A DNA stretch of 36,369 nt, from positions 18,003 through 54,371 of the forward strand of contig PLXG01000247.1 in assembly GCA_003153195.1 (NCBI GenBank), in the 5' to 3' direction. The notes under the pieces were generated by a model that had not been told where the DNA came from, searched no databases, and was given only the letters and a program-made list of their open reading frames with translations. Below are positions 12,103-31,936 of this stretch, piece after piece. The position numbers were made by a program, and so were the translations under genes. Position 1 is the first letter of the stretch. The number at the start of each line of letters is the position of its first letter. This DNA is from Myxococcales bacterium (GTDB taxonomy: Bacteria; Myxococcota_A; Polyangia; Palsa-1104).

Positions 12103-14283
12103 GTGAACCGGCGTCGGCTCATCATTGTTTTGATTCCGCTCATCGTGATCGCCGCTTTTCTGCTCGGACCGATCGGGCTGGGGCAGATGGCGCGGTCGCG
12201 GGTGATCGCCAAGATCGAGCGGCGCACCGGCCGGAGGGTTTCAGTCGGCGAGGTACGCGCGGGACTTTCTTCCATCGCGTTCGACAATATTTCGCTCGAC
12301 AGCGGCGATGCCAAGGCCAGTCCGCCCATCACCGTCAGCCGCATCACCGCGCACTACCGTTTGCTTCCGCTCCTAACCGGGCACATCGAGATCGATTGGC
12401 TGGAGATCGAGCAGCCGAAGATCGATCTCGTCCGCGGTGGCGATCGCGACAACGTCAGCACGCTCATCGAGAAGCTGCGTCAGCCGCGCGAATCGAGTGG
12501 CGAAGGAGGGCGTCTGCACATCGAGCACATTCGCGTGAAGAACGGAACCTTTGCCATCAACGACGAGAAGTATGGGACGGCCGAGACCCGTCGTTGGGAG
12601 CTCGACGGTGAGCCGACTGGTCACGCCGAGATCACCGTCGAAGATGCGACGCTCCAGCTGAAAGCGGGACCGCGCGCCAGCGCCAGACGGCTCAAGCTCT
12701 CCGGAAAGGTCTACGCGTTTCGCCCCGACGGGCTGCCCACCGTCGAAGTGGAGGGCGGGGTGGTAAAGCCGCTCAAGGAGTTGGCGCTATCCGGCATCGA
12801 AGGGCGGATCGGTCCCGATTCCAATGATCTCGACAACGCGCTCGTCGATCTGCACGGAAGCTACGGCGGATCGGAGAAGCCGCTGTGGAATGCCTCAGGG
12901 TGGTTTCATCCGGTCACTCGTCGCGGCGAGATCAAGCTGCGCATGAAGCGGTTCAAGCTCTCGCAGCTCGAGTCGGTGCTCAATCAAGGGTTGGCCAAGG
13001 TTATGAACGCGCGCGATGCGGAAGTGGACGCGCGGCTCGACGTGAGCTTCACCGATCCGATTGTCGACGTGAGTGCGGCCTTTCACTTGAGCGGGCTCAC
13101 CATCGGACATCCGATGCTAGGACCGATGCCGGTGGCCGATCTGGGATTCGACGCGCGCGCGCAGGCGCATGTCGATCTGAAAGAAAAGACACTCAAGGTG
13201 AACGAGGCGGTGATCGATTTTCGCAAGCTGCATGCATCGATCACCGGTGAAGTTGCCAACTTCAATAGCGCGCCGCGATTTTCGGCGGCCATCAAGATTG
13301 CGCCGCTGCCATGTCAGGCGGCGCTGGATGCGATTCCCTCGGAGCTCACGCCGATGCTTCAGGGATTCAAGCTGCAGGGAACTTTTTATACCGACCTGCA
13401 CGCCGGTGTGGACTTCGGCGATTTGGATGAGCCGGTCGATCTCGGTGGGCACGTCGGCATCGAAGGTTGCAAGGTTCTCGACGCTCCGCTCGACGTGAGC
13501 GCCAAACGTCTGCAGGAAACATTCGAGCAGACAGTGGAAACCGAACCCAACAAATGGCTGACCTTTATCGCCGGGCCGGAGAATCCGGAGTGGGTGCCGT
13601 TCACTGAAATTTCGCCGTACCTCATCAACTCGATCATGACCACCGAGGATTCAGGATTTTTCAAACATCACGGCTTCATTCCGTCGGAATTTCGCTCGGC
13701 GCTGCAGCAAAATCTGCAGAAGGGCTATTTCCGCTTGGGCGCGTCGTCGATCACCATGCAGATGGTGAAGAACGTGCTGCTCTCGCGCGAAAAAACGCTC
13801 TCGCGCAAGCTGCAGGAGCTCTTTCTCACCTGGTACATTGAGAAGAGCCTGCCCAAAGAGCGCATCATGGAGATCTATTTCAACGTGATCGAGTTCGGTC
13901 CCGGCATTTACGGAATCGGCCGCGCGGTGAAACACTATTTCGGCAAGACGCCGAAAGAGCTCGAGCCGCAAGAGGCGGCGTTCTTCTCCTCGATTTTGCC
14001 CAGCCCCAAGCGGCGCTACGTGCAGTACTGTCACGCCAGCGGACTTCTCGACGCGAAGTGGCAGGCCTACGTGAACCGAATCCTGAAACGCATTCATGAG
14101 CGCGGGCGAATCACGGACGAAGAGTTTGCCCACGCGATCGCCACGCCGGTGAAGTTCGATCGCGCCGAAGCGACGCCGGAAAAAGAGTGCATGGCGATGG
14201 TCAAGCGACTCACTACGCCGCTGCCCGGCGCTCCGGCCGGCGACGCGAACCAGCCGCCGCCTTCCGACGCGCCCGCCGAATAG
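12103..14283 (+). CDS. AsmA-like domain fused to a GT51 peptidoglycan glycosyltransferase
   Basis: 726 residues from GTG 12103. One N-terminal membrane helix (about 5-27) is followed by ~440 residues with AsmA/DUF748-like features: repeated beta-strand patterns such as ITVSRITAHYRLLPLLTG, IEIDWLEIEQPKIDLVRGGD and LHIEHIRVKNGTFAI. From about 485 a GT51 glycosyltransferase domain begins: TTEDSGFFKHHG (513-524, with the catalytic Glu515), GASSITMQMVKNVLLS (546-561), RKLQE, and ERIMEIYFNVIEFGPGIYGI. No transpeptidase domain follows, so it polymerises glycan strands from lipid II without cross-linking, as MtgA does. The tail is Pro/Ala-rich. Typical MtgA is ~240 residues, so the long N-terminal lipid-groove-like region is the unusual part. 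The gene stands alone between the sigma operon and the TPR gene. Confidence 0.85.
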   Translation: MNRRRLIIVLIPLIVIAAFLLGPIGLGQMARSRVIAKIERRTGRRVSVGEVRAGLSSIAFDNISLDSGDAKASPPITVSRITAHYRLLPLLTGHIEIDWLEIEQPKIDLVRGGDRDNVSTLIEKLRQPRESSGEGGRLHIEHIRVKNGTFAINDEKYGTAETRRWELDGEPTGHAEITVEDATLQLKAGPRASARRLKLSGKVYAFRPDGLPTVEVEGGVVKPLKELALSGIEGRIGPDSNDLDNALVDLHGSYGGSEKPLWNASGWFHPVTRRGEIKLRMKRFKLSQLESVLNQGLAKVMNARDAEVDARLDVSFTDPIVDVSAAFHLSGLTIGHPMLGPMPVADLGFDARAQAHVDLKEKTLKVNEAVIDFRKLHASITGEVANFNSAPRFSAAIKIAPLPCQAALDAIPSELTPMLQGFKLQGTFYTDLHAGVDFGDLDEPVDLGGHVGIEGCKVLDAPLDVSAKRLQETFEQTVETEPNKWLTFIAGPENPEWVPFTEISPYLINSIMTTEDSGFFKHHGFIPSEFRSALQQNLQKGYFRLGASSITMQMVKNVLLSREKTLSRKLQELFLTWYIEKSLPKERIMEIYFNVIEFGPGIYGIGRAVKHYFGKTPKELEPQEAAFFSSILPSPKRRYVQYCHASGLLDAKWQAYVNRILKRIHERGRITDEEFAHAIATPVKFDRAEATPEKECMAMVKRLTTPLPGAPAGDANQPPPSDAPAE

Positions 14284-15764: not shown

Positions 15765-17492
15765 ATGAGACTCGGAGTGCTGCTGCTTTCGCTGCTGGGC
15801 GTAGCCGGAATCGCCCGGGCCGACTCCTCTTGCCGTTCCGTCGAGATCACTTTCAATCCCACGCCCAACTTGCAAGCGGTGGTGTGGGTGGAAGACTCGA
15901 ACGGAAATTACATCGACACCGTCTACATTACGCGGCTGACCGGCAGCTTAGGCTTGGCCAATCGGCCGGGGAATCATTTTTTCAAAAGCGATTTTCGTTT
16001 TCCCTACGGTCGGCGCGACATGGTGCTGCCGATCTGGGCGCATAAGCGAAACAAACAATATGGCTATGTCGTCATGGGCGGCCACTATGGAAATTCGATC
16101 GCCAGTTGCGCTGCGGCGGGAATCACCGGCAGCGACTGCGACGACGAGACCATCGGCTATCACTACAACGTGAGCTCGCCGGAGCCGTTTTACTGCTCCC
16201 CGCGCGGTGGCGTGAACATCATGGACGTCATGTCGTGCGCGTCGACCTTCTATGGATCGAAGGGCGCGTACGCGGTGTCGCCCGGCTACTCGCTTTATCC
16301 GCCGCGCGCCGATCTGACCTCGTTCGTCGACATGCACGATGGTGCCGAGGCGATGGCTTTTTCGATGGTGAACGATCTGACCGCGGTCTCGGGCGCGACT
16401 CCGCCGGGAAATGCGGTGCTCAATCCGGCCATCGTGTGGGTGCCGCCCGCCGACGGATCGTACGTGATGCGCGTGGAGATGAGCCTCGAGGGCGACTTCA
16501 ATGCCGACAACACTCATGCGTCGGTCAACGACGAGCATAGCGAGCTAAACGGTTACGGAAAACAATTCCTCGGCCAGGGATCGATCGTCTACTCGGTGCC
16601 GTTCACCGTCTCGGAGGCGCCCGACACGGAGACCAGCGCCAGCTACGAAGGATATGGCGACTGGGATGGTGCGACCGGAACACTTCATCTACCCGATCCG
16701 ACCATCACTGACTCGCCGGGCTCGGGCGCCGGACGTCTGCTCGACATCGTCGATGGTGGACAGACCTATCGCCTGAAGGTGAGCACCAACGACAACTGCG
16801 TCGCCTCGCCGACCGATGGCGGCACGACTTCGAACAGCGACGGCGGAACCGGCATCGGCATGGGTTGCGAGCCGCCCGGAATGCCGGCCTCATTCACGGT
16901 CACGCCGCACGCGACCTCGATCGATCTGTCGTTCGCGTCGGCTTCGTCGGGCCCGCCCACGCAGAGCTTCGACGTGCGCTATCTCGAGGCCACCGCCATC
17001 ACCGACGCCAATTTCTCTTCGGCCACGCCGTCATCGAACACCGCGCCGCCGCCGGGCACGCCGGGCTCGACGGTGAAGAGCCAAATTCTGGGACTGCGTC
17101 CGCAGGTCACCTACTATGTCGGCGTGCGGGCGTTTTCGAGCTGCAACGCGGGTTCGACGGTGGCGGTGCTCAAGGTGGTGACGCCGACGGCGCAGTTCGT
17201 GACCTTGCACGGATGTTTTATCGCCACCGCGGCATTCGGATCGTCGATGATGGCCGAGCTCGATGCGCTGCGCCGTTTGCGCGACCAACGATTGCTGAAC
17301 AACCCACTGGGAAAATTGGCGGTGGCGGTCTACTACGATGTGAGCCCACCTTTGGCCGCCGCGCTCTCGACGAGCGATCGAGGACGAGCGGTCGCTCGTG
17401 AATTGCTGGCGCCGCTGGTCGAGCTGGGACGAAGGCTCGCGCCCCTCCCAGCTGCGCGATCGGTCAGCGCAGTCCATTGCGTAGTCCATTGA
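15765..17492 (+). CDS. Secreted CFI-box C-terminal protein, copy 1
   Basis: 575 residues with a signal peptide (MRLGVLLLSLLGVAGIARA). The N-terminal ~320 residues form a module shared with the next gene (FxPxxxLQxxVWxEDxxGNxIDTxYxTRxTGxLGLANRPGN; PYGRRxMVLPxWAH; SxEPFYC; LYPPRADLT). A fibronectin-III-like domain follows (about 370-475: MPASFTVTPHATSIDLSF to PQVTYYVGVRAFSSC). The C-terminus has the CFI-box: GCFIATAAFGS with Cys484, then LRRLRDQRLL, then YYDVSPPLA. The CFI-box-CTERM pattern is known from many secreted bacterial proteins; its role (sorting or processing around the Cys) is not established. It is the first gene of a plus-strand cassette, 17 bases before copy 2. Confidence 0.8.
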   Translation: MRLGVLLLSLLGVAGIARADSSCRSVEITFNPTPNLQAVVWVEDSNGNYIDTVYITRLTGSLGLANRPGNHFFKSDFRFPYGRRDMVLPIWAHKRNKQYGYVVMGGHYGNSIASCAAAGITGSDCDDETIGYHYNVSSPEPFYCSPRGGVNIMDVMSCASTFYGSKGAYAVSPGYSLYPPRADLTSFVDMHDGAEAMAFSMVNDLTAVSGATPPGNAVLNPAIVWVPPADGSYVMRVEMSLEGDFNADNTHASVNDEHSELNGYGKQFLGQGSIVYSVPFTVSEAPDTETSASYEGYGDWDGATGTLHLPDPTITDSPGSGAGRLLDIVDGGQTYRLKVSTNDNCVASPTDGGTTSNSDGGTGIGMGCEPPGMPASFTVTPHATSIDLSFASASSGPPTQSFDVRYLEATAITDANFSSATPSSNTAPPPGTPGSTVKSQILGLRPQVTYYVGVRAFSSCNAGSTVAVLKVVTPTAQFVTLHGCFIATAAFGSSMMAELDALRRLRDQRLLNNPLGKLAVAVYYDVSPPLAAALSTSDRGRAVARELLAPLVELGRRLAPLPAARSVSAVHCVVH

Positions 17493-17509
17493 TCGATTCG
17501 CGCGTGAGG

Positions 17510-19132
17510 ATGGCGCGCGGAATTTTGGCACACGGAATGCTGCCGCTACTGGTCAGCTTGGCCGCATCGAGCGCGCTGGCCGATCAGCCCTGTCGAATCG
17601 TCGAAGTTTCGTTTACGCCCGCGTCGCGGCTTCAGATCGCCGTATGGGCGGAAGACCTATCGGGAAATTTCATCGACACCTTGTACGTCACGCGTGCAAC
17701 TGGCGCGCTCGGGTTGGCCAATCGTCCGGGCAACGGTGAGTTCAAATCGGCCTATCGCTGGCCCTATGGCCGTCGGGAGATGGTGCTTCCGGTTTGGGCG
17801 CATCGACACAATCATTCCTACGGCTATGTGACCATGGGCGGCGCGCGCGGCATCGACAAGACCGACAACTCCATCGGCTATCACGAGTCCTATTCGTCAT
17901 CGGAGCCGTTCTACTGTCCGCCGAGCTCCACCAAGCTGGACGCGGTGTCATGCGCCAGTCCGTTCACCGGATCGAAGGGCCTTTACCTGCCGGGCATGAG
18001 CTCGCTCTATCCGCCGCGCGCCGACTTGACCACCTTTGCCGACGAATATGATTCGGTCGACGCGCATCACTACGCCGCCGACAACGACATCGCCGCCATC
18101 TCGCAGGCCACGCCGCCCGGCGGTGCGCTGGTCGATCCGCCTATCACCTGGGCGATGCCCGACTCGGCTGCGAGCGGAACCTATCGCATCTTCGTCGAGG
18201 CCAGTCGCGAAGCCGACTTCAACTCTTCGCATCATTATCCTTCGTTTCCCGACGTCAATTCGGAGCTGCGCGGATTTGGATCGGACGCGCTCGGTCAGCC
18301 ATCGGTGGTCTACTCGGTTCCGGTGATGATCGATGGAACGGCCGACGAGGTCTCGACCGCCGATTGGGATGGCTACGGATCGTGGGATGGCTCGGACGGC
18401 AACCTCAATGTGCCCGACGGAACCATCAGCGAGCCGGCGAACTGCGACGCGCTATCGCAAAATTGCGGCGCCGGACGTCTGTCGCTCATCGATGGAGCGC
18501 GGCTGAAAGTGATCGCCGGCAGCTGCACCGGTTGTCAGACCGCACCTTCGCCGGGGGCGATGGCGGCCGATCCGCAGGATACCTCGGTCAAGTTGAGCTT
18601 CACCGCGCCGATGTCGAACGGGGTGCTCGACGCTGCCAGCCGATATGAGATTCGCTATCGTCCCGGCATGCCACTCGACGACGATTCGTTCGGCGAGGGA
18701 ATTCCGGCCGACACGCCGCCTTCACCGGGAACGCCGGGCACGGCGCAGTCGGTCACGCTCACCGGCCTCAAGCCAGAGACCATCTATTACATTGGCGTTC
18801 GCGCCATCAGCGTGTGCGGAAAGGCATCGCCGGCGCAGTTCGTCACCACCACCACGCAGAAGGCCAAGTTCGTGACGCTGAACGGCTGCTTCATCGCCAC
18901 TGCTGCTTTTGGCTCGGCAATGGTGGCCGAGCTTTCGACGCTCCGGCACCTTCGCGATCGGCATCTGCTCTCGAATCCAATGGGCAAGATGGCGGTGGCA
19001 ATCTACTACGCGATGTCGCCGCCGCTGGCGAACGCGATCTCGACGCACGAGATGCTCCGGTCGGGCGCGCGCGCGCTGCTGTCGCCGCTGGTCCAATTTT
19101 CTCGCGCACTGGAAAAATCTCCGTCGCGTTAG
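17510..19132 (+). CDS. Secreted CFI-box C-terminal protein, copy 2 (tandem paralogue)
   Basis: 540 residues from ATG 17510, with signal peptide MARGILAHGMLPLLVSLAASSALA; an upstream TTG at 17477 would overlap copy 1 and is less likely. GAGG directly before the ATG is poorly spaced, so an inner ATG (17537) cannot be excluded. It aligns with copy 1 along its whole length: VWAEDLSGNFIDTLYVTR, GLANRPGN, PYGRREMVLPVWAH, SSLYPPRADLT, a fibronectin-III-like domain (LKPETIYYIGVRAISVC), and the CFI-box GCFIATAAFGS with Cys460, LRHLRDRHLL and YYAMSPPLA. The shared module therefore arose by tandem duplication and has diverged. The central metal- or ligand-binding properties are unknown. It lies 58 bases upstream of the DUF4266 lipoprotein. 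Confidence 0.8.
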   Translation: MARGILAHGMLPLLVSLAASSALADQPCRIVEVSFTPASRLQIAVWAEDLSGNFIDTLYVTRATGALGLANRPGNGEFKSAYRWPYGRREMVLPVWAHRHNHSYGYVTMGGARGIDKTDNSIGYHESYSSSEPFYCPPSSTKLDAVSCASPFTGSKGLYLPGMSSLYPPRADLTTFADEYDSVDAHHYAADNDIAAISQATPPGGALVDPPITWAMPDSAASGTYRIFVEASREADFNSSHHYPSFPDVNSELRGFGSDALGQPSVVYSVPVMIDGTADEVSTADWDGYGSWDGSDGNLNVPDGTISEPANCDALSQNCGAGRLSLIDGARLKVIAGSCTGCQTAPSPGAMAADPQDTSVKLSFTAPMSNGVLDAASRYEIRYRPGMPLDDDSFGEGIPADTPPSPGTPGTAQSVTLTGLKPETIYYIGVRAISVCGKASPAQFVTTTTQKAKFVTLNGCFIATAAFGSAMVAELSTLRHLRDRHLLSNPMGKMAVAIYYAMSPPLANAISTHEMLRSGARALLSPLVQFSRALEKSPSR

Positions 19133-19190
19133 CAAAACTGTCCGCCTGTAAGGCTTGCGCCGCCGCCCCTTTTATCGGAACATTCTGCCG

Positions 19191-19400
19191 ATGAAAATGG
19201 CCGTCCTCTGTTTCGCGCTTGCGTCGGGGCTCTCTGGATGCGTTCGCGTCAAACCGTATCAACGCGAATATCTGTCGCAGCGCGCCATGGATGCGGCCGC
19301 TGAAAAGGTAGAAGATCGATTCAAGCAGCATTGGCAGGGATCGCGCGAGGGATCGGAAGGCGGATTCGGAAGCGCCGGCGGCGGATGCGGCTGTAACTAG
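19191..19400 (+). CDS. DUF4266-type small lipoprotein with GGGCGCN tail
   Basis: 69 residues from ATG 19191, with an alternative ATG two codons later. Signal peptide with lipobox LSGC (Cys17). The family pattern VRVKPYQREYLSQRAM follows immediately after the lipid Cys. A Gly/Ser-rich segment leads to a terminal GGGCGCN (63-69). DUF4266 proteins share this Cys-V-x-P-x-x-R-E-x-L start and a glycine-cysteine end. They are commonly encoded beside DUF3570 proteins, and often near an ApbE flavin transferase and a thioredoxin-like protein (my recollection of the family's neighbourhoods). The DUF3570 gene is next, but ApbE and thioredoxin are absent from this window. Its stop codon lies inside a 13-bp inverted repeat arm. 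The short length keeps confidence below that of the larger genes. Confidence 0.8.
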   Translation: MKMAVLCFALASGLSGCVRVKPYQREYLSQRAMDAAAEKVEDRFKQHWQGSREGSEGGFGSAGGGCGCN

Positions 19401-19461
19401 TACCTCGCCACAGAGAAAATGACGGGTTCAAAAGCAAAGGTTCGTCGGGGCGAGGTACTAG
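19397..19461. repeat. 13-bp perfect inverted repeat enclosing 39 bases
   Basis: CTAGTACCTCGCC at 19397-19409 is the exact reverse complement of GGCGAGGTACTAG at 19449-19461. The left arm covers the DUF4266 stop codon. The core CGAGGTACTA of the right arm recurs at 19589-19598, and CTAGTAC recurs at 19610-19616 inside the first codons of the DUF3570 gene. Confidence 0.8.
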
Positions 19462-19598
19462 CCGATCTAAGGGGACGTGCCGTCCCCCTCGTCGGGCACA
19501 GCCCGCCGAGCCTCCCCCCTTGCTCGCGGGTCGACTTCGACCCGACGGCGCCTTGGGCGCCTCGGCCAACCGATCAAAATCTTTGTGACGAGGTACTA
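19451..19598. repeat. Hairpin cluster flanked by 10-bp direct repeats CGAGGTACTA
   Basis: Between direct repeats at 19451-19460 and 19589-19598 lie four successive perfect hairpins. They are GGGGACG-TGC-CGTCCCC (19471-19487), CGGGC-ACA-GCCCG (19493-19505), CGGGTCGA-CT-TCGACCCG (19527-19544) and GGCGCC-TTG-GGCGCC (19547-19561). No gene fits here. It may be a REP/MITE-like element or an RNA structure that separates expression of the DUF4266 and DUF3570 genes. Confidence 0.65.
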
Positions 19599-19603
19599 AG
19601 GAA

Positions 19604-20773
19604 ATGCGACTAGTACTCTCCATCTTCCTTTTTGCGTCGCTGTTTTCGTCCGTCGCGTCGGCGGATGAGATCGTCTTTCGCGGCAACTATTGGCGCGATC
19701 GCAACACGCGCGTGATTCAGCCCGAGGCCGATCTGCAGAAAGAATTGCCGACGGGGACCATGGTCGGTGCGCACTACCTGCTCGACACCATCACCAGCGC
19801 ATCGGTGGCGGCGGGCGCGGTGCGCGATCAGCCGTTCACCGAGCTGCGCAACGAGGTCGGATTTCGCTTAGGTCAGCGCATCGGTCCGGCGACGCTGGTG
19901 GGGCGCTACTCCTATTCGTCGGAGTCCGATTATTGGGCGCACACCGCCGGGCTTTCGCTGCTGGTCGATCTGTTCCACAAGAACAGCACGCTCGGACTTT
20001 CCGCCACCTACGGCCACGACGATGTGGGCTTGCGCATGGACGCCAAGACCTTCAACCCCGTCGGCGGGTTGCAAACCATCCACTTCATTCTCTCCTGGTC
20101 GCAGGTGCTCACCACTAAACTGCTGCTGAATGTGAGCTATGAGCTCGGTGAGTCGGGGTTCGGCTCAGCGTCGAACGGCTACCAAAACAATCCCTATCGC
20201 ACGGTCAGCTTGGGTGGCACTCCGTCGCGCGAGACCACGCCCTTCGAGCGATTTCGTCAGGCGTTCAGCGCTGGGTTCAACTGGATCGTTCCCACTCGCG
20301 CGCAGCTGGTACCCTGGATTTCGTTTCGTCCGTCCTATCGCTTCTATTTCGACGACTGGGGATTGCGCTCACACGCTGCCGAATTGCGAATGTATTTTCC
20401 GGTCGGCGTGTTCGAGTTTCGTTTGACTGGTCGCTACTACCATCAGAATTCGGTCAGCTTTTGGAACGACGTCGACGGCACGCCCAGCTACAGCGGCAGC
20501 CACGGCAAATCATGCAGCACCTGCTATTTCACCAAATCGAGTCTGGGATTTTATACCTCGGATCCCAAGCTCGGCATTTTCTCCTCGGAGTTTCTCGATT
20601 TTCGCGTGCTCATTCATCTGACCGGACTGCGCCGATTCAACTCGCGCTTGGCTCACTATCTGAGCGCATCGTACATTGAGCTGTCTTACGGCCACTATTT
20701 CAACGATCGCTACGCGCACACCGCCTTTGGCGACGCCGATTTGGCCGGGCTCGCCTTCGCGTTTCCTCTCTGA
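19604..20773 (+). CDS. DUF3570 family protein, probable outer-membrane beta-barrel
   Basis: 389 residues with a signal peptide (MRLVLSIFLFASLFSSVASA). After it comes the family's opening VFRGNYWRDRNTRVIQPEADL. The rest is a succession of amphipathic strands with aromatic girdle residues (for example ATLVGRYSYSSESDYW, SLGFYTSDPKLG, YIELSYGHYFNDRY) and a C-terminal aromatic/hydrophobic end (AFAFPL), as expected for an outer-membrane barrel. A CSTC motif sits in a loop near residue 305. DUF3570 proteins are paired with DUF4266 lipoproteins in many genomes. Here the two are separated by 203 bases of repeat sequence. AAGGAA precedes the ATG. Barrel topology is inferred from strand pattern. Confidence 0.82.
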   Translation: MRLVLSIFLFASLFSSVASADEIVFRGNYWRDRNTRVIQPEADLQKELPTGTMVGAHYLLDTITSASVAAGAVRDQPFTELRNEVGFRLGQRIGPATLVGRYSYSSESDYWAHTAGLSLLVDLFHKNSTLGLSATYGHDDVGLRMDAKTFNPVGGLQTIHFILSWSQVLTTKLLLNVSYELGESGFGSASNGYQNNPYRTVSLGGTPSRETTPFERFRQAFSAGFNWIVPTRAQLVPWISFRPSYRFYFDDWGLRSHAAELRMYFPVGVFEFRLTGRYYHQNSVSFWNDVDGTPSYSGSHGKSCSTCYFTKSSLGFYTSDPKLGIFSSEFLDFRVLIHLTGLRRFNSRLAHYLSASYIELSYGHYFNDRYAHTAFGDADLAGLAFAFPL

Positions 20774-27079: not shown

Positions 27080-28510
27080 ATGTACGACTATGACTGGCTG
27101 GTGATTGGGTCCGGCCCGGCGGGCGAGAAGGCGGCCACCCAAGCGGCCTATTTCGGAAAGCGCTGCGCGGTTGTCGAGCGAGCCGAAGAGGTCGGCGGCG
27201 CCTGCATCAACACTGGCACGCTGCCGTCGAAGACCTTGCGCGAGACCGCGCTCTATTTGTCGGGATTTCGACAGCGCGAGCTCTACGGAATCTCCTGCAA
27301 AGTGAGCGGCGATGTTTCGGTGCAAGAGCTCATGTGTCGCCAGCAGCCGGTGCTCGGCAGTCAGAAAGCACGCTGCCATTGGAATTTGAGCCGGCACAAC
27401 ATTCCGCTTCTGCGCGGCGACGCCACTTTTCTCGATGCGCATACGCTCGAGATCGTTCCTTCCGACGGAGCGCCCTATCGCGTGACGTCGGACGCGATCT
27501 TGATCGCCACTGGATCGTCGCCGTTTCGGCCCGAGTACGTTCCGTTCGAAGATCCCGAGATCGACGACTCCGATTCGATCTTGCACCTCGATTCGATTCC
27601 CAGATCGCTGGTGATCTTGGGCGGCGGCGTCATCGGCTGCGAGTACGCATCGATTTTTGCGTCGCTCGGCACACAGGTTACCATCGTCGAAGGTCGCGGC
27701 GAATTGCTCGGATTTCTCGACGGCGAAGTCTGCAAGATCTTGTCGACGCAGCTAGAGCGACTCGGTTGCACGCTGCTCATGCGCGCCGAAGTGGTTGAGG
27801 TGGCGCGAAAAAAAGGTGCGGTACACTGCCTGCTCAAAGATGGCCGCGATCTCGAGTGCGAGCGGTTGCTGTTCGCGGGAGGTCGCGCCGGAAATACGCG
27901 ATCGCTCGGGCTCGAACGGGTCGGCATCATCCCCGACGCGCGCGGCATTCTGAAAACTGACGGTCACTATCACGTGCTCGAACCGGCCGGTCAGCCGACT
28001 GCGGCGCGCATCTACGCGGCTGGCGACGTGATCGGATTTCCCGCACTCGCGTCGGTGGCGATGGAGCAGGGCCGAGTGGCGGCTTGTCATGCGTTCGACA
28101 TTCCCTTCAAGACCAAGGTCGCTTCGCAGTTTCCCTATGGTCTCTACACCATTCCCGAAGTGTCGATGATCGGCGAGACCGAAGAGTCGGCGCGCAAAAA
28201 GGGATTAGAGTTCGAAATTGGAAGGGCTTTCTACCGCGACAATGCCCGCGGCCAGATCATCGGTGACACCGAAGGCATGTTGAAAGTGCTGTTCACCGTG
28301 CCCGACAAGAAGGTCATCGGTGTGCACGTGGTAGGTGAGCGCGCCACCGAGCTCATTCACTTCGGAATGGCGACGCTCAAATACGGCGGCACCATCGACG
28401 ACTTCATCGACGAGGTGTTCAACTACCCGACGCTGGGCGAAATGTACAAGTACGCCGCCTACGACGGGCTCGGCCGCATGTCGCACAAGCGTGAAACCAC
28501 GCGCGCATGA
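27080..28510 (+). CDS. sthA: Soluble pyridine nucleotide transhydrogenase (SthA-type)
   Basis: 476 residues, the usual flavoprotein disulphide-reductase layout: FAD motif VIGSGPAGEKAA near the N-terminus, NAD(P) motif ILGGGVIGCEYASIFASLG at about 175-193, a second FAD segment (RIYAAGDVIGFPALASVAMEQGR), and a dimerisation domain ending VFNYPTLGEMYKYAAYDG. The redox-active site reads GACINTGTLPSK: Cys42 is present, but the second Cys of CxxxxC is Thr47. That rules out a working dihydrolipoamide dehydrogenase and matches SthA (E. coli has the same single-Cys arrangement). SthA equilibrates NADPH and NADH in the cytosol. The gene stands just before hemE but is separated by 29 bases. Confidence 0.9.
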   Translation: MYDYDWLVIGSGPAGEKAATQAAYFGKRCAVVERAEEVGGACINTGTLPSKTLRETALYLSGFRQRELYGISCKVSGDVSVQELMCRQQPVLGSQKARCHWNLSRHNIPLLRGDATFLDAHTLEIVPSDGAPYRVTSDAILIATGSSPFRPEYVPFEDPEIDDSDSILHLDSIPRSLVILGGGVIGCEYASIFASLGTQVTIVEGRGELLGFLDGEVCKILSTQLERLGCTLLMRAEVVEVARKKGAVHCLLKDGRDLECERLLFAGGRAGNTRSLGLERVGIIPDARGILKTDGHYHVLEPAGQPTAARIYAAGDVIGFPALASVAMEQGRVAACHAFDIPFKTKVASQFPYGLYTIPEVSMIGETEESARKKGLEFEIGRAFYRDNARGQIIGDTEGMLKVLFTVPDKKVIGVHVVGERATELIHFGMATLKYGGTIDDFIDEVFNYPTLGEMYKYAAYDGLGRMSHKRETTRA

Positions 28511-28526
28511 CGTGAACCTCTTGAGG

Positions 28527-28532
28527 TATACT
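28527..28532 (+). promoter_or_regulatory. -10 element TATACT of the hem operon, seven bases before ATG
   Basis: TATACT ends seven bases before the hemE start (28540). No convincing -35 is seen in the end of sthA. It could give a leaderless hem mRNA. Confidence 0.4.
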
Positions 28533-28539
28533 CGCGGGC

Positions 28540-29580
28540 ATGTCCCGCGCTGACCGCTTGCTTCGCGCAATTGCCGGCGAAACCGTCGATACGACACCTA
28601 TTTGGATCATGCGACAAGCGGGCCGCTACCTGCCTGAATACCGCGCCACGCGCGCCAAGGCGGGGAGCTTTCTCGATCTATGTAAGACGCCCGAGCTCGC
28701 CTGCGAGGTGACCATTCAGCCGGTCGATCGCATCGGGGTCGACGCGGCAATTTTGTTTTCGGACATTCTCATTCCGATCGAAAAGATGGGCGTGCCGCTC
28801 AGCTTTCCGGCCGAAGGTCCGCGACTCGAGCCGGTGCGCGATCGCGCGGGCATCGACGCGCTCAGAATTCCCGATGCCGACGCAGAGATGCCGTACGTGA
28901 TGGAGGCGATTCGTCTGGTCAGGCGCGCGCTCGATGGAAAAGTGCCGCTGATCGGATTTTCCGGCGCGCCCTTTACGCTGATGACCTACGTGGTCGAGGG
29001 GCAGACCTCCAAGCAGTTTGCCGAGACCAAGCGGCTCATGTTCACCGCGCCCGATGCCGCGCATGCGCTTTTGGCCAAATTGTCTGACACGGTGATCGCC
29101 TATTTGACCGCGCAGATTCGCGCCGGGGCGCAGGTGGTGCAGCTGTTCGACTCCTGGGTGGGACAGCTCGCGCCAGAAGATTTTCGCGTTTTCGCGCTTC
29201 CCTACGTGAAGAAGATCATCGCCGCGATCAAGCCGCTCGGCGTGCCCATCATCTATTTTGCCAACGATGGCGCAGCGCTGCTGCGCGACGCGGCCACCTG
29301 CGGAGCCGACGTGCTTGGCCTCGATTGGCGACTTCCGCTCGACGAAGCGCGTCGCATGACCGGCGATGCCATCACGCTGCAAGGAAATCTCGATCCCTGC
29401 GTGCTGTTTTCACCGGTAGCGGAGATCGAGCGTCGCGCGGCAGACATTTTGAGGCGCGCCGGCGATCGACTTCATGTGTTCAACCTCGGTCACGGAATTC
29501 TACCGCCGACGCCGCCCGAGCACGCACAGGCGCTGGTAGAGATCGTGCATCGCTTAGGAGCGCGCCCAGCCGCGAAATGA
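28540..29580 (+). CDS. hemE: Uroporphyrinogen decarboxylase
   Basis: 346 residues, the family's normal length. The signature WIMRQAGRYLPEYR (active-site Arg region) is near the N-terminus, followed by LCKTPELACEVTIQPVDRIGVDAAILFSDIL with the key Asp, and GFSGAPFTLMTY with the family's Gly/Thr-rich loop. The C-terminal FNLGHGILPPTPPE is also present. The enzyme removes four acetate carboxyl groups from uroporphyrinogen III to give coproporphyrinogen III (EC 4.1.1.37). Its stop overlaps the hemH start by 4 bases (29577-29580). It is the first of the hemEHY genes, an order also known in Bacillus subtilis. Confidence 0.96.
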   Translation: MSRADRLLRAIAGETVDTTPIWIMRQAGRYLPEYRATRAKAGSFLDLCKTPELACEVTIQPVDRIGVDAAILFSDILIPIEKMGVPLSFPAEGPRLEPVRDRAGIDALRIPDADAEMPYVMEAIRLVRRALDGKVPLIGFSGAPFTLMTYVVEGQTSKQFAETKRLMFTAPDAAHALLAKLSDTVIAYLTAQIRAGAQVVQLFDSWVGQLAPEDFRVFALPYVKKIIAAIKPLGVPIIYFANDGAALLRDAATCGADVLGLDWRLPLDEARRMTGDAITLQGNLDPCVLFSPVAEIERRAADILRRAGDRLHVFNLGHGILPPTPPEHAQALVEIVHRLGARPAAK

Positions 29581-30602
29581 ACACGCCTCCCTACGGCGTC
29601 GTTTTGCTCAACCTCGGGGGGCCCGATTCGCTCGAGGGAGTAGAGCCGTTTCTCTATAACCTATTTCGCGATCCCGATCTGATCCAGCTGCCGCTCGGTC
29701 TGTTCTGGCAAAAGCGTTTCGCCAAGCTGGTCTCTCGTCGGCGTGCGCAGACCGTGCGCGAATATTATCGGCTCATCGGTGGCAAGTCGCCGCTCAACGA
29801 GATCACGCACGCGCAGGCCAAAGCACTGGAGGCTCGGCTCAACCAAAAATCTCCCGAACAATTCCGCTGCTACGTGGCCATGCGCTACGCGCCGCCCTTT
29901 ACCGCCCAAGCCATCAAAGAGATGGCCAAAGACGGAATTCACACGGTGATCGCGCTGTCGCTCTATCCGCACTACACCACCGCCACCACCGGATCGTCGT
30001 TGTGGGAGCTGCGCAAGCAGCTGGCGGGAAAATCGCCGGCGCTCGGCGCAGTCGATCTGTTGGAAATCGACCGCTGGCCCGATGACGAAAAATATCTCGA
30101 CGCGCTGGCGTCGCAGGTGCGGCGCGGAATCGAGCAATTTCCCGTCGAGAAACAGGCCGGCGTGGAGCTGCTTTTTTCTGCGCACGGATTGCCGGAGACC
30201 TTCATTCGCAAAGGCGATCCTTACGTCGCCGATCTGGAGCGCACCATCGCCGGAGTGCTTTCGCGTCTTGGCGGACAGCATCCTTGGCGCCTCAGCTATC
30301 AAAGTCGCGCTGGTCGCGCGCGCTGGCTCGAGCCGGCCACCGATAGCGTGCTCAAGCTTTTGGCCCAGACCGGTCGCAAAGAGGTGTTGGCCATCCCGAT
30401 CTCGTTTGTCTCCGATCACATCGAGACGCTCTATGAGATCGATCTACTCTTTGGCGATGAGGCCAAGGCGCTCGGCCTCGATTTCCGTCGGGCACCGTCG
30501 CTCAACGACGATCCGCTCTTCATCGAGGCGCTGGCCGGACTGGTCGAGCGTAAGCTGACCGCGGCGAGATCGTCACCCGCTGCCGGAGAGACGCAAAAAT
30601 GA
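29577..30602 (+). CDS. hemH: Ferrochelatase
   Basis: 341 residues from the ATG at 29577, inside a longer open frame whose extra N-terminus (from 29325) is Arg-rich noise. It starts TPPYGVVLLNLGGPDSLEGVEPFLYNLF as ferrochelatases do. The metal-site His203 lies in SAHGLPETFI, and the second site includes FVSDHIETLYEID with Glu283. The enzyme inserts Fe(II) into protoporphyrin IX, or into coproporphyrin III in the coproporphyrin-dependent pathway. It overlaps hemE by 4 bases and hemY by 4 bases, so all three should be made in step. The choice between protoporphyrin and coproporphyrin as substrate cannot be fixed from motifs. Confidence 0.95.
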   Translation: MNTPPYGVVLLNLGGPDSLEGVEPFLYNLFRDPDLIQLPLGLFWQKRFAKLVSRRRAQTVREYYRLIGGKSPLNEITHAQAKALEARLNQKSPEQFRCYVAMRYAPPFTAQAIKEMAKDGIHTVIALSLYPHYTTATTGSSLWELRKQLAGKSPALGAVDLLEIDRWPDDEKYLDALASQVRRGIEQFPVEKQAGVELLFSAHGLPETFIRKGDPYVADLERTIAGVLSRLGGQHPWRLSYQSRAGRARWLEPATDSVLKLLAQTGRKEVLAIPISFVSDHIETLYEIDLLFGDEAKALGLDFRRAPSLNDDPLFIEALAGLVERKLTAARSSPAAGETQK

Positions 30603-31936
30603 GGTGGGTGGTGATCGGCGGCGGCATCGGCGGGCTGAGCGCGGCGCTCGAGCTGAGAGATCGCGGCCATCAGGTGACGATCCTCGAGAAACAAGCTAGA
30701 ACCGGCGGCAAGATCGGCACCGTTCGCGAAAATGGCTGGGAGGTCGAGCTGGGACCGGCCGGCGTCCTCGATAACGCTCCCGCCACGCAAGCGCTGTTCG
30801 CGCGACTCAAGCTCGAAGTGATTCCATCGGACGACAGCGCACGTCGAAGATTTCTGTTTCTCGACGGAAAACTCCGCCAAGTACCGTCTTCCCCACCCAC
30901 GCTGCTCACCAGTCGTACGCTCGGCATTCGCGACAAGTGGCGCATCTTTCGCGAGCCGTGGGCCAAGCCGCGCGGCAAAGAAGACGAGTCGATCGCCGAG
31001 TTCTGTCGTCGCCGCTTCGGTTCGCGACTGACCGAGCGATTCGTCGAGCCAGTAGTACAGGGCGTGTTTGCCGGCGACATCGAGAGGCTCTCCCTGCGCG
31101 CCTGCTTTCCACTGCTCAATCAACTCGAGGCCGAGCACGGCAGCGTGGTGCGTGGACTTTTGTCGAGCGAACGCACGCGATCTCCCACGGGTGAAAAGCG
31201 GCGTGCGCCCAAGCTGGTCACTTTGCGTGGCGGAATGGCGGCGCTCACCGACGCGCTGACGGTCGCGCTCGGCGCCGACGTGCAGACCAACATCGAAGTG
31301 AAGTCGCTGTCCCGAATCGCCGGCGAATGGGTGATTCGTACTGGCGCGAACGATCTGCGCACCCAGGGCTTGATTCTCGCGTTGCCGCCGTTCGAATCCG
31401 CGGCGCTGTTGCGCACCGTCGACAGAGAGATCGCCGATGCCTACGGCAAAATTCGCGAAGCTTCGATCGCCGCGGTGAGCCTCGGTTACCTGCGCGGCGA
31501 AGTGGCGCATCCGCTGAACGGCTTCGGCTTCTTGATTCCCAAGATCGAAGCCGAGCGACCACTCGGTGCCATCTGGATGACCAGCGCCTTTCCCGCCGCG
31601 GCGCTGGCACCGGCCGATCACACGCTACTGCGCTTCATGATCGGCGGCGATCGAGATCCCAGCGCGGCGCGACTTTCGGACGACGCGCTCATCGAGGCGG
31701 CCGTCTCGGCGGCGCATATCACCATGAACATCGACGCTCGACCTCGTTTTCGGCACGTGGTGCGCTACGCACGCGGGATTCCGCAATACGATGTCGGCCA
31801 TTCGGAGCGCGTCGCGCTCATCGAAGAGCGCGGCAAATCGATACATCTCTTTGGCGTGGGCGCGGCGCTTCGCGGAGTGAGCGTGAACGATCTGATTCGG
31901 GACGCAGGCGAGCTCTCGAAAAAAATCGGCGCATGA
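30599..31936 (+). CDS. hemY: Protoporphyrinogen/coproporphyrinogen oxidase, HemY type
   Basis: 445 residues, the usual HemY size. The FAD-binding Rossmann motif is WVVIGGGIGGLSAALELRDRGHQVTILEK, followed by TGGKIGT and the HemY-typical ELGPAGVLDNAPATQALF. The pattern VVQGVFAGDIERLSLRACFP and the closing HLFGVGAALRGVSVNDLI are also family-specific. It oxidises protoporphyrinogen IX (or coproporphyrinogen III) with O2. hemE-hemH-hemY is an arrangement established in Firmicutes. The gene overlaps hemH (30599-30602) and the transporter gene (31933-31936) by 4 bases each. The final segment ends SKKIGA. Confidence 0.93.
   Translation: MRWVVIGGGIGGLSAALELRDRGHQVTILEKQARTGGKIGTVRENGWEVELGPAGVLDNAPATQALFARLKLEVIPSDDSARRRFLFLDGKLRQVPSSPPTLLTSRTLGIRDKWRIFREPWAKPRGKEDESIAEFCRRRFGSRLTERFVEPVVQGVFAGDIERLSLRACFPLLNQLEAEHGSVVRGLLSSERTRSPTGEKRRAPKLVTLRGGMAALTDALTVALGADVQTNIEVKSLSRIAGEWVIRTGANDLRTQGLILALPPFESAALLRTVDREIADAYGKIREASIAAVSLGYLRGEVAHPLNGFGFLIPKIEAERPLGAIWMTSAFPAAALAPADHTLLRFMIGGDRDPSAARLSDDALIEAAVSAAHITMNIDARPRFRHVVRYARGIPQYDVGHSERVALIEERGKSIHLFGVGAALRGVSVNDLIRDAGELSKKIGA

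Follow-up and report, generated by a model that had tools for sequence, protein, structure and literature searches.

DUF2271-related CFI-box proteins form a conserved cassette with DUF4266 and DUF3570 proteins in Polyangia

What joins two tandem CFI-box proteins to a DUF4266 lipoprotein and a DUF3570 protein? The question is raised by a four-gene locus in a stretch of 36,369 nucleotides (hereafter the window, meaning the whole of the DNA analysed) from a Myxococcales bacterium (GenBank assembly GCA_003153195.1, contig PLXG01000247.1; host genome assembly 71.7% complete). An initial annotation viewed the locus as an export or surface-display system in which the CFI-box proteins are the substrates and the DUF3570 protein is the outer-membrane component. 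It also named ApbE and thioredoxin as the customary partners of DUF4266/DUF3570 pairs, which is correct (Meheust et al. 2021, eLife, PMC8238504), and proposed that CFI-box proteins take their place.

Results

Gene layout of the cassette

The open reading frames (ORFs) of CFI1, CFI2, DUF4266 and DUF3570 are all on the + strand, at the coordinates initially assigned to them, with intergenic gaps of 17 bp (CFI1-CFI2), 58 bp (CFI2-DUF4266) and 203 bp (DUF4266-DUF3570). Family matches agree with the description of a four-gene, same-strand set containing a tandem CFI-box pair. Both CFI tails match CFI_box_CTERM, NF041770 (74.1 and 84.2 bits; curated cut-off 40), the lipoprotein matches PF14086 (68.1 bits, E=1.3e-18; cut-off 27) and the last protein matches PF12094 (89.2 bits, E=3e-25; cut-off 25). 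As read from the sequence, CFI1, CFI2 and DUF3570 carry putative signal peptides and DUF4266 a lipobox, LSGC. The start of CFI2 was taken as the ATG at 17510; the ORF list gave a TTG at 17477. A scan for promoters and terminators returned chance-level matches only. The features of the cassette, with the evidence for each, are as follows.

15765..17492, +, CFI1, a secreted DUF2271-related, fn3 and CFI-box protein of 575 aa (ORF, NF041770, AF2)
15831..16781, +, DUF2271-related N-domain of CFI1 (alignment A1; PF10029 in relatives; hhalign)
16389..16400, +, SGAT, flavinylation-type tetrapeptide of CFI1 (aligns with DAVSGAT of DUF2271; motif rules of PMC12052999)
16914..17183, +, fn3 domain of CFI1 (fn3 matches in Foldseek of the CFI1 model)
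17214..17420, +, CFI-box of CFI1 (NF041770; three helices in the AF2 model)
17510..19132, +, CFI2, tandem paralogue of CFI1 (ORF, NF041770, ∼50% identity to CFI1)
17591..18511, +, DUF2271-related N-domain of CFI2 (A1; PF10029 at E=0.003, under the cut-off)
18101..18112, +, SQAT, degenerate motif of CFI2 (alignment)
18581..18856, +, fn3 domain of CFI2 (PF00041, 40.6 bits)
18887..19093, +, CFI-box of CFI2 (NF041770)
19191..19400, +, DUF4266 lipoprotein of 69 aa, lipobox LSGC (PF14086)
19386..19394, +, Cys-Gly-Cys in the CGCN-stop tail of DUF4266 (CGC in all listed DUF4266 tails)
19398..19598, +, MITE-like element between DUF4266 and DUF3570 (31-nt inverted repeat; further genomic copies)
19604..20773, +, DUF3570 protein, predicted 16-strand outer-membrane β-barrel (PF12094; AF2; Foldseek)
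19784..19804, +, DTITSAS of DUF3570, degenerate counterpart of flavinylation motif 1 and signature of the CFI-linked clade (alignment, tree)

The DUF4266 protein terminates in GGGCGCN, and its stop codon, TAG, is supplied by the MITE-like element, which is bounded by 31-nt imperfect inverted repeats (TAGTACCTCGCCACA.../...GTGACGAGGTACTA). The same genome (G000) holds a 95% full copy of this element on contig C307, partial copies on C312 and C337, and diverged cores at about 10 further places. A conserved CxC has been reported in DUF4266 (PMC8238504); among the 52 tails listed here CGC is present in all, with the ending CGCN in 51 and CGCQ in one. The initial annotation had ascribed a conserved cysteine near the C-terminus to three of the four proteins. 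This is true of DUF4266, with its CGCN-stop; the cysteines of the CFI proteins lie ∼90 residues from the end, and the description therefore suits DUF4266 better.

Elsewhere in the window, positions 12103-14283 encode an AsmA/DUF748-type N-terminal part fused to a peptidoglycan transglycosylase domain, and 27080-31936 holds a run of uroporphyrinogen decarboxylase, ferrochelatase and amine-oxidase-family (protoporphyrinogen-oxidase-like) genes adjoining a pyridine nucleotide-disulphide oxidoreductase.

Conservation of the neighbourhood

The initial annotation had offered the count of CFI-box genes near DUF4266/DUF3570 as a check, with lack of enrichment speaking against a single unit. In an order-of-magnitude test, 41 of the 150 CFI-box matches listed (33 of 99 genomes) were within 5 kb of DUF4266/DUF3570, compared with 0.3-0.8 expected from uniform placement of the listed DUF4266 matches. 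The genes are typically on the same strand, with 230-390 bp between CFI and DUF4266/DUF3570, and the CFI-DUF4266-DUF3570 unit occurs in at least seven families in co-directional or convergent layouts. In a tree of 46 DUF3570 proteins, all 17 that adjoin a CFI gene fall in a single clade (support 97/97; on one side of the branch in 100% of bootstrap trees). These observations are strong evidence that the association is conserved in Polyangia, and uphold the view that the genes form one unit.

Genes may also remain adjacent by ancestry, with no joint function. Such hitch-hiking would fit the window's own family, in which synteny extends to the TPR, PolB-exonuclease and MPG genes on the flanks. 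These flanks are not retained in distant families, however, and the unit persists in at least seven families while its other neighbours change. The two alternative layouts and the one dedicated DUF3570 clade also argue against hitch-hiking, which is largely refuted and considered very improbable.

The CFI proteins contain a DUF2271-related domain

CFI1 and CFI2 are ∼50% identical. In both, an N-terminal region of ∼320 residues is followed by an fn3 domain and then the CFI-box, an order found in almost all of 48 proteins from the neighbourhoods fetched. Relatives of the N-domain occur in 104 of the 241 genomes of the class. In a profile search of genome contigs with a nine-member N-domain alignment, contigs carrying CFI1 relatives belong, where named, to Polyangia/Myxococcales metagenome-assembled genomes, Kofleriaceae and Enhygromyxa. 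A close relative (locus L043, 3374-5026; identical to L118) has one CFI protein, which is split between two reading frames by a frameshift, decay or an assembly error.

The DUF2271 family profile, PF10029, was matched by 26 of the 29 CFI N-domain relatives in alignment A1 (best E=8.9e-8), with no competing family. Alignment of the CFI N-domain with same-class DUF2271 proteins (hhalign) gave 94% probability (E=1.3e-7); the aligned stretch spans 40 columns, with the flavinylation motif at its centre. As neither cassette protein reaches the PF10029 gathering cut-off of 27.3 (CFI1 gave no match, CFI2 17.7 bits), the domains are termed DUF2271-related and are not assigned to DUF2271 itself. Foldseek with the CFI1 model returned fn3 matches only. 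Sequence comparison thus indicates that the CFI N-domain is related to DUF2271, a family of ApbE flavinylation substrates; this kinship was missed by the initial annotation. Among 30 loci of this class with plain DUF2271, DUF4266 lies within 1.5 kb in 17 and DUF3570 within 1.5 kb in 13, showing that DUF2271, DUF4266 and DUF3570 travel together in Polyangia. CFI-DUF2271 proteins also occur in many genomes with no DUF3570 nearby, and a search of those loci for another conserved neighbour found none.

State of the flavinylation motifs

DUF2271 and DUF3570 proteins are experimentally established ApbE substrates, the DUF2271 target being the motif DAVSGAT (PMC8238504). Replacement of the motif Gly by Ala lowers flavinylation to about half, while Asp-to-Ala has little effect (PMC12052999). 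The aligned region reads TAVSGATPP in CFI1 and AAISQATPP in CFI2, so that [ST]GA[ST] is present in CFI1 (SGAT), where Thr replaces the Asp, and is lost from CFI2 (SQAT). Canonical DUF3570 proteins contain D-x-x-[ST]-GA-[ST] and one further site; the protein of the window displays DTITSAS at the first position and lacks the second, and so has neither of the two [ST]GA[ST] motifs by which DUF3570 substrates of ApbE are recognized. The CFI-linked DUF3570 clade as a whole is without the second motif. Its CFI-adjacent members comprise 15 with a readable first motif, all D-x-[IV]-TSAS, and two in which the region is missing. Among readable rows every one of the 15 adjacent proteins carries the variant, compared with 7 of the 26 that are not adjacent (Fisher 2.7e-6, a value that is no more than indicative because the rows are related).

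Applied to these proteins, the motif rules in PMC12052999 make CFI1 a plausible substrate, CFI2 an unlikely one and the DUF3570 proteins of the CFI-linked clade doubtful; FMN attachment is thus plausible, on its motif, for CFI1 alone among the proteins of the cassette. Flavinylation is not conserved across the CFI-DUF2271 family, [ST]GA[ST] being retained in 16 of 57 scorable domains and the motif Gly missing in 41, including CFI2. Taken with the TSAS clade and its missing second motif, this means that flavin cannot be the core function that is conserved, except if ApbE tolerates such variant motifs.

ApbE itself is encoded in the host genome, away from the cassette (two matches, best E=6e-82), and in 194 of the 241 genomes of the class. 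A profile search found no ApbE in 40 CFI or 20 DUF3570 neighbourhoods, and neither the window nor the CFI neighbourhoods contained ApbE, thioredoxin or DsbD. ApbE would therefore act in trans. The missing ApbE was considered as a special trait of the cassette and rejected, as other Polyangia DUF3570 genes likewise have no adjacent ApbE. The proposal that CFI-box proteins stand in for ApbE and thioredoxin does not hold, since ApbE is present in the genome, the clusters of this class are normally without it, and the main part of each CFI protein is kin to an ApbE substrate.

The decay of the flavin motifs makes a thiol- or metal-based variant a serious rival, even if a somewhat unlikely one. Here the module would be flavin-independent, working through cysteine chemistry (the DUF4266 CxC and the fn3/CFI-box cysteines) or metal binding, with the DUF2271 fold as scaffold. 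The loss of the Gly from most CFI-DUF2271 domains and from the entire CFI-linked DUF3570 clade is consistent with this explanation, as are the ubiquitous CGC tail of DUF4266, two cysteines, Cys440 and Cys464, that are invariant in the CFI protein alignment, and sister DUF3570 clusters that adjoin TlpA/DsbD. Conversely, the motif Thr and the Pro that follows it (T190 and P191) are invariant in A1, SGAT is kept by CFI1 and many relatives in its order, and the CFI clusters have no thioredoxin. Two other DUF4266-DUF3570 clusters of the host genome (L009 on contig C200 and L011 on contig C477) have TlpA/DsbD-like neighbours, and [ST]GA[ST] is absent from the DUF3570 proteins there too.

The DUF3570 barrel and the CFI-box

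The DUF3570 protein was modelled by AF2 as 16 strands (mean pLDDT 80), with Foldseek matches to OprD-type porins, OmpG, AlgE, BcsC and a polysaccharide secretin (TM about 0.4-0.6). Judged by the model, it is very probably an outer-membrane barrel, in keeping with the role initially given to it. The model places DTITSAS in the loop that follows strand 3; given a periplasmic N-terminus, this loop would point outward.

The CFI-box is modelled as a 69-residue domain of three helices. Both cassette proteins belong to CFI_box_CTERM, a family named merely for its tail, and the literature searched made no mention of the CFI-box. Like MYXO-CTERM and GlyGly-CTERM tags it is a C-terminal domain containing Cys or Gly-Cys in exported proteins; unlike these and the PEP tags, the boxes of CFI1 and CFI2 show no hydrophobic transmembrane segment with a basic tail, either on reading the sequence or in the AF2 model. 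The CFI-box may act as an anchor or docking domain.

If the locus were an export or surface-display system, DUF3570 would provide the channel or anchor, the CFI-box the export or retention signal, and DUF4266 an accessory lipoprotein. The predicted barrel, with exporters among its fold matches, is compatible with such a system, and the CFI-box is both conserved and C-terminal in proteins whose fn3 domains are frequent at cell surfaces. In addition, the gene for the third CFI protein of the genome is followed by an overlapping one for a 305-aa protein that is barrel-like by eye. The porins OprD and OmpG, however, match the DUF3570 model at least as well as the exporters do, CFI-box proteins occur in many genomes and at many loci with no DUF3570 nearby, the CFI-box, modelled as helical, does not look like a membrane-spanning tag in CFI1 or CFI2, and export leaves the DUF2271 relationship out of account. 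The claim that DUF3570 exports the CFI proteins thus gained no support, and export is judged unlikely. The third CFI protein (L012, 7457-9975, contig C7) has no DUF2271-related domain and, in its own case, ends in hydrophobic segments.

Discussion

The conserved association, the dedicated DUF3570 clade and the kinship with DUF2271 together suggest that the cassette represents a dedicated branch derived from the extracytosolic redox clusters of ApbE, DUF3570 and DUF4266, an electron-moving module of the envelope; it is an even call whether this explanation is the right one. In the proposed mechanism DUF3570 would form a β-barrel in the outer membrane, and the DUF4266 lipoprotein beside it would offer a Cys-x-Cys tail that is redox-active or binds metal. 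CFI1 and CFI2, each a secreted DUF2271-related domain followed by fn3 as a spacer and by the helical CFI-box, would partner barrel and lipoprotein at the envelope. The ApbE encoded elsewhere in the genome would probably place FMN on the Thr of SGAT in CFI1, the full motif having been lost from CFI2 and the barrel. The likely role would be electron transfer linking the periplasm with an acceptor, for example ferric iron or protein thiols; DUF2271 operons have been linked to iron (PMC12004947, PMC7190382).

Two known systems resemble the cassette. The DsbD/ApbE/thioredoxin-like/DUF4266/DUF3570 clusters of PMC8238504 similarly pair a CxC-containing DUF4266 with DUF3570 and include a domain of the flavinylation-substrate type, but the cassette lacks adjacent ApbE, thioredoxin and DsbD, its DUF3570 has no [ST]GA[ST], and it adds two DUF2271-fn3-CFI proteins. 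The ferric-reductase-type PepSY/ApbE/DUF2271/DUF4198 operons share with it a DUF2271-type domain and, in CFI1, SGAT. The cassette differs from them in its partners, DUF4266/DUF3570, with neither PepSY nor DUF4198 found, and in its DUF2271-related domain, which is larger and forms a fusion with fn3 and a CFI-box. The components are therefore known, while their combination with DUF2271-fn3-CFI proteins and a dedicated DUF3570 clade, not found in the literature searched, is a new variant.

A more specific proposal, put forward tentatively and regarded as rather doubtful, is that the secreted DUF2271-fn3-CFI protein uses its CFI-box to dock on the DUF4266/DUF3570 pair and passes electrons to the cell surface, in a dedicated outer-membrane module of Polyangia that began with flavin and is shifting to thiol or metal chemistry. 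If true, this would be the first function for the CFI-box, so far a named tail, as a docking domain. The cassette ties three functionally uncharacterized families (CFI-box, DUF4266 and DUF3570) to DUF2271 in one conserved unit, giving the CFI-box its first testable context. It also captures substrate families of the ApbE type losing their flavinylation motifs yet keeping their partners, and indicates the outer membrane as the site at which these systems may act.
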